Positions 11,062-50,630 of a stretch of DNA of 64,000 bases are shown here, one piece after another. The translations under genes and the position numbers were made by a program. Below the pieces are notes generated by a model. The model saw only the letters and a program-made list of their open reading frames with translations, was not told the origin of the DNA and did no database searches. The DNA is taken from positions 2,527-66,526 of the forward strand of contig PLYA01000077.1 of the NCBI GenBank assembly GCA_003153315.1, written 5' to 3'. Each line of letters begins with the position of its first letter. The stretch's first letter is position 1. The DNA is from Bacteroidota bacterium (GTDB lineage Bacteria > Bacteroidota > Bacteroidia > B-17B0 > Aurantibacillaceae).

Positions 11062-12426
11062 TTACTTTACTATCACCAGCCGCTTATTTACCACGCCCTC
11101 ATTACTGATAATGCTGATATTATAAACACCTTCGTTTAAAGGGCTTGCATCTATGGTGGTTTTGCCATTTATGGTTTGGCTTAAAACAAGTTTGCCGTTT
11201 ACATCGTACACGGTACAAAGTACATTGTACAATGTATTTTGCGGCTCTATAACAAAGCTGCCGTTGTTGGGATTGGGGTAAATCTTTACTTGCTCGCTAC
11301 TTACTGCCAACTGCTCTATACCCATTGCCTGTCCAACGCTGGTTACTTTACGTATACAGTTGTTACCGTAATCAGAAAAATATAAATTACCCACACTATC
11401 AAAAGCTATACCCTGAGGACCGTGTAGTTCTGCAGCAGTAGCTGCCCCCCCATCTCCGCTGTAGCCTGCTGTGCCATTGCCCGCAATGGCACTTATAATA
11501 CCTGCTGAATTTACCATGCGAATGCTATTATTATCCATATCACTAATATATAAATTCCCTGCGGCATCAAAGGTTAGCCACGCAGGGTTATATAATTCTG
11601 CAGCCGTTGCCTGCCCACCATCTCCGCTATAACCTTGTGTGCCATTTCCGGCTATTGTATTTATTATACCTAAAGTATTTATTTTACGAACGCGGTTATT
11701 TGCAAGGTCTGCTATATAAATATTATTTTCTGCATCAATGGTTAACCCACATGGGTAATTTAACTCCGCAGCAGTGGCTGCACCACCATCTCCACTATAA
11801 CCCATAGTTCCATTCCCTGCAACGGTGTTAATAATACCTGATGTATTTACCATGCGTACGCGGTAATTATGATAATCTCCAATATAAAAATTTCCCGCTA
11901 TATCAAAGGCTACCCCTTCAGGGGCATTTATTTCTGCAGCAGTAGCTTGCCCTCCATCCCCACTAAAACCTGCTGTGCCATTTCCGGCAACTGTAGTTAT
12001 AATACCTGCTGTATTTACTTTGCGTATGCGGTGATTACTTTCATCAGCTATATACAAATTGCTTGCTGCATCAAGTGTTATACAGATAGGGTAGGATAAT
12101 TCTGATGCCGTTGCTTGCCCTCCATCACCACTAAAACCTGATGTGCCGTTTCCGGTTATGGTGCTTATAATACCTGTAGTAGTTATTTTGCGTATAAGAC
12201 TATTACTTTCATCAGCTATATATAAATTACCTATAGCATCAATGGCTAATCCTGCTGGGTTGCTAATCTCGGCAGATGTCGCCTGCCCTCCATCACCGCT
12301 ATAACCGTGGATACCGTTACCAGCAATAGTGGTAATAATTCCACTTTGGGCAGATGCAACCCATCCCCAACCCTTCCCAAAGGGAAGGGAGAATATAATA
12401 ATAAAAATAAATGAAATCTTTTTCAT
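11062..12426 (-). CDS. NHL-repeat (beta-propeller) secreted protein with T9SS C-terminal sorting domain
   Basis: Tandem AGNGTAGYSGDGGQATAAELNxPxG...DAxGNLYIADxxNxRIRKV repeats. C-terminal VKIYPNPNNGSFVIEP...YDVNGKLV...GVYNISI...KRLVIVK. Confidence 0.88.
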   Translation of the reverse strand: MKKISFIFIIIFSLPFGKGWGWVASAQSGIITTIAGNGIHGYSGDGGQATSAEISNPAGLAIDAIGNLYIADESNSLIRKITTTGIISTITGNGTSGFSGDGGQATASELSYPICITLDAASNLYIADESNHRIRKVNTAGIITTVAGNGTAGFSGDGGQATAAEINAPEGVAFDIAGNFYIGDYHNYRVRMVNTSGIINTVAGNGTMGYSGDGGAATAAELNYPCGLTIDAENNIYIADLANNRVRKINTLGIINTIAGNGTQGYSGDGGQATAAELYNPAWLTFDAAGNLYISDMDNNSIRMVNSAGIISAIAGNGTAGYSGDGGAATAAELHGPQGIAFDSVGNLYFSDYGNNCIRKVTSVGQAMGIEQLAVSSEQVKIYPNPNNGSFVIEPQNTLYNVLCTVYDVNGKLVLSQTINGKTTIDASPLNEGVYNISIISNEGVVNKRLVIVK

Positions 12427-16922: not shown

Positions 16923-17672
16923 TTAAGCCAAATTAATGGTTATGCAATTGCACCATGGGCCCGATTTTTCGGGGTGCACCACATCATACCAACGGAAGAA
17001 GATATACATAATTTTACCTGCGTTTGCCAGCTTAAAATCGTAAGGAAACAACGCATGGGTATCTATGCCCTGAAACGGACAATCTTCAGGCCCTTTAGGC
17101 GGTGCGGGTTGCACCTGCCCTGCGGCAACTCTGTCAACAATATCCCAGCTAAACTGTGGTATTTGCCCATCGGGGCTGCTGTGTTTGGTAGCATCGTGGC
17201 TGGTTTTGCAGCCTATCAGGTAGGTGCAAGAGCCTTTTGGGGTAAGAGATACTATTATTTGTTCTAAGATATGGTTGCCTGCGGTGCGCGCAGTGGCTAC
17301 GGGCAATAAACCCAAGGTGCCGTGGTTAGTAACCGTAAATGCTGAATTGTACAGCACGTTTTCCTTATTCCAGGGGCGCAGTGTGTTTTTTAAAAATAGT
17401 TTTTTGGCATTGGTAAAAGCCGTTGTTTGCACGCTGGTATGTGTGCCCTTTACCGATACGGGCGCCCATTTGGCTTGCAAATCGGTAATGCCGGGCACTA
17501 CTTTGTTTGCCCAGCTATTAAGCGCTCTTGCCGAAAAGTACGGAAACCCATCCGGCGCGTTTCCGGTAGTTATAAAGGCATTTATTTGTGCTAAAAAATT
17601 GGCAAGCCACGTCATAAACGGGTGGTTAGACGTAGGGATACTGCTTTTGGTTTTTTTCTTTATTAGTCCCAT
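16923..17672 (-). CDS. 249-aa protein of unknown function, copy 1 of a duplicated module
   Basis: Full-length ORF about 96% identical to 36491-37240. Ends KIMYIFFRWYDVVHPEKSGPWCNCITINLA. Confidence 0.85.
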   Translation of the reverse strand: MGLIKKKTKSSIPTSNHPFMTWLANFLAQINAFITTGNAPDGFPYFSARALNSWANKVVPGITDLQAKWAPVSVKGTHTSVQTTAFTNAKKLFLKNTLRPWNKENVLYNSAFTVTNHGTLGLLPVATARTAGNHILEQIIVSLTPKGSCTYLIGCKTSHDATKHSSPDGQIPQFSWDIVDRVAAGQVQPAPPKGPEDCPFQGIDTHALFPYDFKLANAGKIMYIFFRWYDVVHPEKSGPWCNCITINLA

Positions 17673-17723
17673 GGTTTTTGTTTTTTTGAGGTTTATATGA
17701 AGTTATAAGTTGCCTTTTTAACA

Positions 17724-17912
17724 TTTTTAGGGAAGGATAAACTAACTTGAGTGAAGGATAAACTATTTTTAGGTGAGGATAAACTAACCTGAGTGAGGGG
17801 TAAAGTTTCTCCGGTGAAGGGTAGAAAGTTTTTAGCGTAGCGTAGAAGTCTTAAAAGGTGGGGTGCAGAAACTAAACCGGTGTGTTTAGTAGTTAAAAAG
17901 TTGCGGGGGAGG
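17724..17912. repeat. Degenerate tandem array, exact 21-bp period, 9 units
   Basis: Consecutive 21-mers without indels: tttttagggaaggataaacta / acttgagtgaaggataaacta / tttttaggtgaggataaacta / acctgagtgaggggtaaagtt / tctccggtgaagggtagaaag / tttttagcgtagcgtagaagt / cttaaaaggtggggtgcagaa / actaaaccggtgtgtttagta / gttaaaaagttgcgggggagg. Confidence 0.85.
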
Positions 17913-34812: not shown

Positions 34813-36459
34813 TTATTCTACTACCAGTTTCTGTTTTTCTATCACATCTCCAATTTTAGCCATTACAAAATAAATGCCTTTAGTGTATTGAGATATATCA
34901 AGGTTAAACTCTCCGGCATTAGTATTTTGTACTTCATATATAGTTCTGCCTTGCATATCTATTATACGTATATATTCTGCCAAACCATATAAACCAATAG
35001 TTATATTATTATCACTAGGATTGGGATATACAGAAAAATTAGTAGGTAAAACTATGCCGCTAGAACCATCTATTGAAGGTTTAGCTATTCTACAGCAACC
35101 ACCACAACCACAAGATTGTGCAGTTACCTGTACTGTACTGGTATTTGTACTAAGACTAATACCGGGGTCATTAACGGTTACCGTATAAATTATAGGAGTA
35201 CTTGTATTGGTATAACTGCAAGTTGGTTGAGCACAGTTTGTACAGCTTAAAGCTGTTGAAGGTGACCAAGTATAAGAAAGACAGGAATATCCTGGGGTGC
35301 CGATAGTTACACCGGGATATCCGCAACAAGTTTGCACATTAACTTGATTAGGCCCCGCATTAGCAATAGCATAAATACTTACATAACGTATACGCTGATT
35401 AGCTTGATCTGCTATATATAAATTTGCCGAAGCATCTAAAGCTATACCTTGACCTAGATGTAATTCCGCAGATGTTGCTGCTCCGCAATCACCAGTAAAG
35501 CCTTGAGTAGCATAACCCACAAATTGGTTAATAATTCCCGAAGTAATAGTTCGTACACTTGAATACTGATAGTTTACAATGTATATAGTTCCTGCGGCAT
35601 CTATTTTTACATCGGTAGGTTCCCCTAATTCAGCAGCGGTAGCAGCACCACCATCTCCAGTATAACCATTTGTTCCGTTTCCGGCAAACGTACTTATAAT
35701 GCCCGATGTGTTAACCATGCGTATGCGGTTATTACCAGAATCCGCTATGTACATATTACCTGAAGCATCAAAACATACACCATCAGGGTCATTTAGTCCA
35801 GCAGCAGTAGCTTGCCCCCCATCTCCACTATAACCACCTGTAGTAGTATATCCGGCTATGGTACTTATAATGCCGGTAGTAGCAACCTTTCGTATACGAT
35901 TATTCACTTGGTCTGAAATATATAAATTACCTAAAGCATCAATGGTTACTCCCCACGGATAATTTAGTTCTGCAGCAGTTGCCTGCCCTCCATCTCCACT
36001 ATAACCTGCAGATCCGTTTCCGGCTATGGTGTTTATAACACCCGATGTATTTATCTTGCGTATGCGCTGATTCCAAGTATCAGCTACATACAAATTACCC
36101 GAAGCATCGAGAGTCATACTACTTGGTGCATGAAACTCTGCAGCAGTTGCTTGCCCTCCATCCCCGCTAAACCCTAATGTTCCATTGCCTGCAAAGGTAC
36201 TTATAATGCCAGTTTTAGTTATCTTGCGTATCCGATTATTCTGAGTATCCCCTATATAGATATTACCCGAAGCATCAACAAACACATGGTTAGGATAATT
36301 TAATGCTGCATTTACTGCAAAGCCCCCATCTCCGCTAAAACCTGCAGCTCCATCCCCTGCAATAGTATTTATCATGTGGTACAAAAAACGTGGAGGGAGC
36401 TGCGCATATCCCATGCATCCCGCAAGGCATAATGCTAAAATTAGTTTTGTTTTTTTCAT
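34813..36459 (-). CDS. NHL-repeat secreted protein with Cys-rich segment and T9SS sorting domain
   Basis: Tandem AGNGxxGxSGDGGQATAAEL...NLYIADxxNxRIRK; FSVYPNPSDNNITIGL...QKLVVE. Confidence 0.88.
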   Translation of the reverse strand: MKKTKLILALCLAGCMGYAQLPPRFLYHMINTIAGDGAAGFSGDGGFAVNAALNYPNHVFVDASGNIYIGDTQNNRIRKITKTGIISTFAGNGTLGFSGDGGQATAAEFHAPSSMTLDASGNLYVADTWNQRIRKINTSGVINTIAGNGSAGYSGDGGQATAAELNYPWGVTIDALGNLYISDQVNNRIRKVATTGIISTIAGYTTTGGYSGDGGQATAAGLNDPDGVCFDASGNMYIADSGNNRIRMVNTSGIISTFAGNGTNGYTGDGGAATAAELGEPTDVKIDAAGTIYIVNYQYSSVRTITSGIINQFVGYATQGFTGDCGAATSAELHLGQGIALDASANLYIADQANQRIRYVSIYAIANAGPNQVNVQTCCGYPGVTIGTPGYSCLSYTWSPSTALSCTNCAQPTCSYTNTSTPIIYTVTVNDPGISLSTNTSTVQVTAQSCGCGGCCRIAKPSIDGSSGIVLPTNFSVYPNPSDNNITIGLYGLAEYIRIIDMQGRTIYEVQNTNAGEFNLDISQYTKGIYFVMAKIGDVIEKQKLVVE

Positions 36460-36490: not shown

Positions 36491-37240
36491 TTAAGCCAAA
36501 TTAATGGTTATGCAATTGCACCATGGGCCACTCTTTTCGGGGTGTACCACATCATACCAACGGAAGAAGATGTACATAATTCTGCCTGCGTTTGCCAGCT
36601 TAAAATCGTAAGGAAACAGGGCATGGGTATCTATGCCCTGAAACGGACAATCTTCGGGGCCTTTAGGCGGTGCGGGTTGCACCTGCCCTGCGGCAACTCT
36701 GTCAACAATATCCCAGCTAAACTGAGGTATTTGCCCATCGGGGCTGCTGTGTTTGGTAGCATCGTGGCTGGTTTTGCAACCTATCAGGTAGGTGCAAGAG
36801 CCTTTTGGGGTAAGGGATACAATTATTTGTTCTAAAGCAGTTCCACCTGCGGTGCGCGCAGTGGCTACGGGCAATAAACCCAAGGTGCCATGGTTAGTAA
36901 TGGTAAATGCCGAATTGTAGAGTACGTTTTCCTTATTCCAGGGGCGCAATATGTTTTTTAAAAATAGTTTTTTGGCATTGGTAAAAGCCGTTGTTTGCAC
37001 GCTGGTATGTGTGCCTTTTACCGATACGGGAGCCCATTTGGCTTGCAAATCGGTAATGCCGGGCGTTACCTTGTTTGCCCAGCTATTAAGCGCCCTTGCC
37101 GAAAAGTAGGGAAACCCATCGGGTGCGTTTCCGGTAGTTATAAAGGCGTTTATTTGTGCTAAAAAATTGGCAAGCCACGTCATAAACGGATGATTTGAGG
37201 TGGGTATGCTGCTTTTGGTTTTTCTTTTGGTTATTCCCAT
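36491..37240 (-). CDS. 249-aa protein of unknown function, copy 2 of a duplicated module
   Basis: Differs from 16923-17672 at about 10 residues; same position between a 21-bp array and a T9SS gene. Confidence 0.85.
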   Translation of the reverse strand: MGITKRKTKSSIPTSNHPFMTWLANFLAQINAFITTGNAPDGFPYFSARALNSWANKVTPGITDLQAKWAPVSVKGTHTSVQTTAFTNAKKLFLKNILRPWNKENVLYNSAFTITNHGTLGLLPVATARTAGGTALEQIIVSLTPKGSCTYLIGCKTSHDATKHSSPDGQIPQFSWDIVDRVAAGQVQPAPPKGPEDCPFQGIDTHALFPYDFKLANAGRIMYIFFRWYDVVHPEKSGPWCNCITINLA

Positions 37241-37300
37241 GATTTCCTGTTTTTATAGGTTTATTTTAACATTTAACTACTGAATTTAACATTTAGATGT

Positions 37301-37510
37301 GTGCAGGTAGTATTTGTATGTGTGCGTAAAGTATTTCTATCCCTGCGTAAAGTTTCTGTATGTGCGCATAAAGTATTTCTACTCGTGCGTAAAGTTTCTC
37401 TACTCGTGCAGGAAGTTTCTAAATGTGCGCGTAAAGTATTTCTACTCGTGCAGGGAATTTCTCTGCTCGTGCAATTAGAAACTAAAAACGTGTGTATAGA
37501 AACTAAGCGG
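37301..37510. repeat. Degenerate tandem array, exact 21-bp period, 10 units
   Basis: Consecutive 21-mers: gtgcaggtagtatttgtatgt / gtgcgtaaagtatttctatcc / ctgcgtaaagtttctgtatgt / gcgcataaagtatttctactc / gtgcgtaaagtttctctactc / gtgcaggaagtttctaaatgt / gcgcgtaaagtatttctactc / gtgcagggaatttctctgctc / gtgcaattagaaactaaaaac / gtgtgtatagaaactaagcgg. Confidence 0.9.
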
Positions 37511-37537
37511 CGTTGTTTAACAAACGCAGGCGAAAGT

Positions 37538-37584
37538 GCGGATTGCGGATTGCGGATTGCGGATTGCGGATTGCGGATTGCGGA
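37538..37584. repeat. Perfect 7-bp microsatellite (GCGGATT)x6.7
   Basis: gcggatt repeated six times plus gcgga, no mismatches. Confidence 0.95.
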
Positions 37585-37853
37585 AGTTAAGAATCATATA
37601 ACAAAATTATAACTTATTTTGATACCGCCAAATTAAATTTACGTTAAGTTTTTTAGAAAAGATAGCAAATGGTTATGTCCGCTCCAACTTCATTAATCCC
37701 CGCTTTTTTACCATTGGTCGTTTTCAGGGTTGGGCGGATGCTTGCCTTACAAGTCTTTTGCTAAATTTGCCCCCGTTAAACCAGCCGAGCGAAGTAAAAC
37801 GCAGCGAATACATGAGTACCAAATAAAAAAACAATTAAAAACGAATAAACTGT

Positions 37854-50034: not shown

Positions 50035-50210
50035 AATCTTTATTGTTTGGGCTTTCCCCCACCGCAGGTGGGGTTGGGCTTTACACGCTGCATGGCAGCT
50101 TGCTATCAAATGCCTTTTTGGTATTCAGCGATACCGATAAAAATAATAAAGACGCTAAGGGTAAAAAGGCAAAAATTGCTTGTTTTAGGGCTTAAATTTG
50201 CTTTTGGAGG

Positions 50211-50630
50211 TCATCGAATTGTTGCGGATTATCATCGAATTGTTTCGGATTAGCGTTGTTTCGTTTCTGGAGACCGTCGAATTCGTTCGGATTGTCATTG
50301 TTTCGTGTGGGGAACATCATTGTTTCGTTTCCGGAGACCGTTGTTTCGCTTCAAGACATCATCGAATTTGTTCGGATTGTCATTGTTTCGTTTCAAGAGA
50401 GCGTTGAAAGCGCTTGGAACACCGTTGAACTGGTTCGGGATAGCATTGAACTATGGGGGAACATCATTGAATTGTGAGGAATGCCATTGAATTGCTTTGG
50501 AAGAGCATTGAACGAGTGGGGGATATCATAGAATTATTTAGGATTATCATTGAATAAATTGGGAAGGATGTTGAACGAGTGGGGAACATCATCGAATTTA
50601 TGCAGATATTCATTTCTCTGCAAGAAGATG
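50211..50630. repeat. Degenerate tandem array, about 20 units at 21-bp period
   Basis: Anchor (tcat/gcgt/ccgt/gcat)(t/c)gaa occurs at 50211, 50232, 50253, 50274, 50295, 50317, 50338, 50359, 50380, 50401, 50422, 50443, 50464, 50484, 50505, 50526, 50547, 50568, 50589, 50610. Confidence 0.9.

Follow-up and report, generated by a model that had tools for sequence, protein, structure and literature searches.

What keeps a tandem array at one exact pitch when its sequence has changed beside a nearly unchanged protein gene? The question is raised by array 2 of the window (the whole stretch of 64,000 nucleotides that was analysed; its genome is G000, with further genomes given G-numbers and loci L-numbers). 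Array 2 comprises ten 21-bp units, with 63-bp higher-order repeats, at 37298-37507, 57 bp upstream of a minus-strand gene (36491-37240; copy 2, W2) for a protein of 249 aa outside every Pfam and NCBIfam family. In the leader between array and start codon (37241-37297, minus strand) there is a TGTTAAA-type motif, a motif class enriched next to the arrays of G000. Upstream of the array lies a promoter on the minus strand, with a -7 element TAnnTTTG at 37602-37609 (minus strand, TAATTTTG) paired with a -33 element TTG at 37629-37631 (minus strand), and between promoter and array there is a perfect 7-bp repeat, TGCGGAT, of 6.9 copies (37537-37584). A related repeat, GCGGATA, occupies the equivalent position in L008 and L009. 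Coding 168-bp repeats of the NHL-like propeller type occur at 34813-36459 and 11428-12306; the former gene adjoins that of array 2, and L008 and L009 likewise have related genes alongside. The other two arrays in the window are array 1, six 21-bp units at 17722-17847 beside a second copy of the gene (16923-17672, minus strand; copy 1, W1), and array 3, nineteen units at 50200-50598 between gmk and recX without an adjacent family gene. No strand is assigned to the three arrays or to the 7-bp repeat.

The array in exact 21-bp register described by the sequence-only reading is real. It scores 169-171 bits at period 21, and at most 15 bits on the identical DNA at periods 19, 20, 22 and 23; Tandem Repeats Finder returned periods 21, 42 and 63, and ten block-shuffled copies of the window yielded zero arrays. 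The two neighbouring proteins are 96% identical (36491-37240 against 16923-17672), as had been estimated. Their arrays resemble each other no more than unrelated arrays do: the similarity is 0.397, where the background has a mean of 0.347 and a 95th percentile of 0.428, and the unit sequence of array 1 is unlike that of array 2. The W1 and W2 genes are 92.7% identical and their arrays about 57%.

The association of array and gene extends far beyond the window. About ten homologues of the window protein are detectable by sequence in G000, and every one inspected adjoins a 21-bp array with a unit of its own. Such arrays are also found at homologues from the same genus, family and class, and from other classes of Bacteroidota. 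Searching with a bait consensus, whose matches rest on their own alignments, produced 29 loci in Planctomycetota, Acidobacteria, BRC1, Ignavibacteriae, Prevotellaceae and a Hormoscilla MAG, 15 of which align to L052 with 47-65% identity. Altogether, a period-21 array of at least 60 bits lies within 500 bp upstream of 46 of 50 family genes, which span at least four phyla (Bacteroidota, Planctomycetota, Acidobacteriota and BRC1). Downstream control regions have a median of 8.7 and a maximum of 43.5 bits, and other periods are at background. The weak matches L044 and L045 were left out as doubtful relatives. In L061 and L068 an array was not seen within 500 bp upstream, in L053 it is weak, and in L070 a 22-bp ACCCGA satellite takes the place of the 21-bp array; none was found at the Hormoscilla locus, and the Prevotellaceae locus has too little upstream DNA for the test. 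A held-out set, drawn without selection for arrays from a later Planctomycetota sample and from additional copies in known carriers, had an array at 9 of the 13 new loci with a 60-bit cut and at 11 of 13 with a cut of 50 bits. The family is present in about 2% of the sampled Planctomycetota genomes, which is a lower bound since the first look of the search was limited. Despite the common spacing, unit sequences are unrelated between loci. The existence of a widespread array-plus-gene module is thus well supported, and no description of it was found in the open-access text of PMC. An origin from viruses or plasmids was rejected, as no relatives were found among viral contigs, nor any of L029 or of the bait consensus among plasmids.

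The register is kept while the sequence turns over. Among 497 units of 46 arrays, indels breaking the 21-bp register were sought and only two off-register cases appeared, both at assembly gaps. Gaps inside homologous arrays of paralogues measure 21, 21, 21 and 63 bp, and other gap sizes occur only outside the arrays. In L030 and L032 the flanks are 81% and 77% identical and the arrays 59%, and the similarity of arrays falls to background by about 60% protein identity. The proposal of rapid turnover under a strict period is therefore strongly supported by the register, the gap sizes and the decay of similarity.

Whole-unit changes of this kind could also serve as a copy-number switch, in which slippage by 21-bp units alters the expression of the FN3-like neighbour (phase variation). 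Homologous arrays do differ by whole units, and in lake Planctomycetota populations many noncoding deletions are reported at intergenic tandem repeats of unspecified unit length (PMC9426551). Nevertheless, in many loci the units are too diverged for frequent slippage, arrays without a family gene are equally long, and a 21-bp step makes a poor on/off switch because it preserves helical phase. We regard such a switch as improbable.

At which level, then, do the arrays act? Roles as peptide, RNA and DNA structure had all been left possible for array 2; of these, the peptide fails as a general explanation, structure in the sense RNA finds no support, and the DNA level is favoured. The proposed open plus frame does exist, as an ORF at 37301-37612, but it is no evidence of coding, since in such arrays open frames are equally common on both strands (34 arrays have a zero-stop frame on the sense strand, 33 on the antisense). 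In a codon-position test none of 46 arrays had codon-position structure, and the column conservation of 93 arrays has no period-3 power. Stops interrupt all three sense frames of L015 and L017. On the other side, the gene strand of L011, L013 and L014 carries a long open heptad frame that starts with ATG; in L014 it amounts to a 237-aa ORF. Codon-position structure together with an open frame on one strand, as in a coding heptad repeat, does not characterize the arrays, and that the array encodes a heptad-repeat peptide seems very improbable.

Transcription of some arrays is suggested by their promoters. A TTG-N18-23-TAnnTTTG promoter precedes the array, 54-167 bp upstream, in 7 of 19 Bacteroidota loci, and no promoter pair lies between array and gene, so that judging from the sequence the array is probably transcribed in those seven. 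The array might then act as RNA, through leader hairpins or as a multivalent RNA, controlling the mRNA or working in trans. The units are self-complementary, and, compared with column-permuted arrays, single strands fold better (mean z -2.1). However, the antisense strand folds as well as the sense strand (Wilcoxon p 0.81), within-unit covariation is absent (combined z 1.07), and there is no excess of G-T over A-C mismatches (172 vs 166), although the power of these strand tests is limited and many of the loci are paralogues. No Rfam family, and hence no known structured RNA, was matched at 13 loci, and in a second protein family the arrays are 3′ of the gene. RNA hairpins and selection on the RNA strand were set aside for lack of covariation, G-T excess or a strand difference in folding, and we consider action as RNA unlikely.

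The features that argue for the DNA level are symmetry and rhythm. Dyad symmetry reaches p<0.05 in 29 of 46 arrays (63%; mean z 2.0) and is also seen, more weakly, in arrays without a family gene. The column conservation of 93 arrays has power at 21 bp (t 2.8) and at 10.5 bp (t 3.7). Because the units are dyad-symmetric and conservation follows a 10.5-bp rhythm, a role at the level of DNA is favoured. Intrinsic curvature is not the explanation, since the A/T content has no 10.5-bp phasing and even less 10.5-bp power than shuffles (the harmonic of W is negative).

The arrays are not confined to the family genes. Period 21 accounts for 53 of the 56 tandem arrays in 41 stretches of G000 (847 kb in total, or about 829 kb once overlaps are removed); two of these were counted twice through overlaps, which leaves about 50 of about 53 in 0.83 Mb, a density of about one per 16 kb. 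The slices C1 to C7, taken regardless of homologues, are equally rich, and extrapolation to some 250 arrays per G000 genome is therefore fair. Close inspection of 47 arrays placed about 14 upstream of main-family genes and 5 downstream of second-family genes, and about half of the G000 arrays have no adjacent family gene detectable by sequence comparison. In the second family, of which five members (238-250 aa) were found, the 21-bp array follows immediately after the gene (L088:807-1121, L091:19388-19681, L093:2872-3123, L103:1723-1995 and L104:17755-18048). A short sequence, TGTTAAAA, is enriched about 15-fold in the flanks of G000 arrays (11 of 47), including arrays without a family gene, and may mark one end of the module. 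In L005 (C13), the array grades from units like those of array 2 into units like those of array 1, ends in a family-like leader and precedes an unrelated lipoprotein gene. Other carriers contain further arrays as well (G191, 5 in 115 kb; G287, 5 in 170 kb; G021, 5 in 160 kb; G005, 2 in 28 kb), and arrays are scarce in G027 (one, doubtful) and in G013 (none in 47 kb). Among non-carriers, zero arrays were found in G003 of the same genus (389 kb), in G007 (197 kb) and in G063 (200 kb). Arrays and family thus co-occur at the level of genomes.

The main rival explanation is that the arrays are largely selfish or mutational, made and spread by an enzyme or replication process with a 21-bp ruler, lodged next to family genes and in other places alike, and doing nothing specific for the cell. 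The arrays without a family gene, about half of the total, fit this proposal. So does the gmk/recX array, which has no counterpart after gmk in six congeners; a clean empty site could not be defined, since the neighbours of gmk differ among the congeners. In L008 and L009 the arrays are 98.4% identical and the genes 86%, which we read from the sequences as conversion between loci. Moreover, in L014 (1473-2186) the family gene is reduced to a C-terminal remnant and the adjacent 28-unit array is intact, and several family-gene fragments within one genome (G430, G436) suggest fast birth and decay of family genes. Against the proposal stand the tie to one protein family at a fixed place across phyla, the conservation of array flanks on both sides among paralogues, and the lack of a RAYT (Y1_Tnp) gene in G000. 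Nor does the presence of a reverse transcriptase track the arrays: manufacture by reverse transcription was rejected, as the carriers G021 and G287 lack RVT_1 and several non-carriers have it. That the arrays are largely selfish or mutational is thus not likely, though somewhat less unlikely than action as RNA.

The reading that we prefer, tentatively and at rather less than even confidence, is that the array is a helix-phased platform on which protein binds at the DNA level, as the cis-acting part of the widespread array-plus-gene module. Each unit would span two turns of B-DNA and present two-fold symmetric contact patches one turn apart, and a dimeric DNA-binding protein could assemble side by side along one face of the helix. 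Where the array lies upstream, it would be part of the transcribed leader, and assembly there would control expression of the gene. The unit sequence may drift and be homogenised by unequal exchange and gene conversion, with selection holding the helical phase. Fixed recognition of the array by its own protein was rejected: the W1 and W2 proteins are 96% identical, yet their arrays are unrelated, and the putative binder is probably something other than just the neighbouring protein acting with one set specificity. A leader-operator role cannot be general, given that about half of the arrays have no family gene and those of the second family lie downstream. One period-20 array, and the lack of a significant dyad in a third of the arrays, count against the platform. 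The former, at L083 (6936-7398), is built of AGCTTTT..AAAAGCT units and has, downstream of it, the gene for a protein in which Pfam recognises an FN3 domain.

More broadly, we give about even weight to the proposal that these arrays form an undescribed class of genetic element whose defining feature is helical phase and not sequence. A genome would contain tens to hundreds of them, differing in unit but all at a 21-bp pitch, and shared trans-acting machinery would maintain them together with a patchily distributed FN3-like family across bacterial phyla. An exact pitch with free sequence in noncoding DNA is hard for homology tools to detect, and such DNA may for that reason be nameless. Should a phased protein assembly bind the array, bacteria would have in it an equivalent of satellite-like DNA, one with a defined physical ruler. 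Clear predictions follow from the period, from the dyad and from the link to a gene family.

The module also provides a first genomic context for an unannotated protein family that occurs in at least four phyla. The main family fits no model of Pfam or NCBIfam. The model of L052 (mean pLDDT 88.9, pTM 0.49) has helices at residues 9-25 and 34-88 followed by a beta sandwich, which among PDB structures matches FN3 domains best (E about 1e-4); its viral matches include phage tail and FN3 proteins. The model of the window protein is poor (56.7) and has the same layout, a helical N-terminal part and a beta C-terminal part. The array-linked protein of L083 scores above the cut-off for PF00041. The relatives are accordingly predicted, from models, to combine a helical domain with an FN3-like domain; the fold is found in L052 and L083, and the window protein model is too poor to judge. 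No secretion signal was seen by eye. The family therefore resembles known FN3 domain proteins in its C-terminal domain, by fold and in some members by sequence, and differs from them in that its N-terminal helical domain and the whole protein match no Pfam or NCBIfam model.

How do the arrays compare with known repeat systems? Like CRISPR and TIGR-Tas, they are intergenic repeat arrays tied to a protein gene. Unlike these, they do not alternate a fixed repeat with unique spacers; every column of the 21-bp unit is common to the units with graded conservation, the entire unit varies together, and the adjacent proteins scanned gave no Pfam match to a Cas or Nop-domain (Tas) protein. REP elements with their RAYT are likewise short palindromic intergenic repeats in many copies, yet they are scattered single palindromes of one sequence, whereas the 21-bp arrays are phased, tandem and unrelated in sequence; an identity with REP/RAYT was rejected, as G000 has no match to PF01797 (Y1_Tnp). 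Plasmid iterons are direct repeats of roughly 21 bp that bind protein in helical phase. The arrays share the repeat length and differ in being chromosomal, numerous in each genome, unrelated in sequence and without a replication initiator: an iteron array marks an origin beside a Rep gene, and about 50 arrays in 0.83 Mb lie by ordinary chromosomal genes. The arrays resemble bacterial minisatellites or VNTRs in being noncoding tandem units that change by whole units, and relatives differ by whole units as in phase-variable VNTRs (gaps of 21 and 63 bp between paralogues). What sets them apart from minisatellites is that nearly all arrays of G000 have one period, not one sequence, and track one protein family across phyla.
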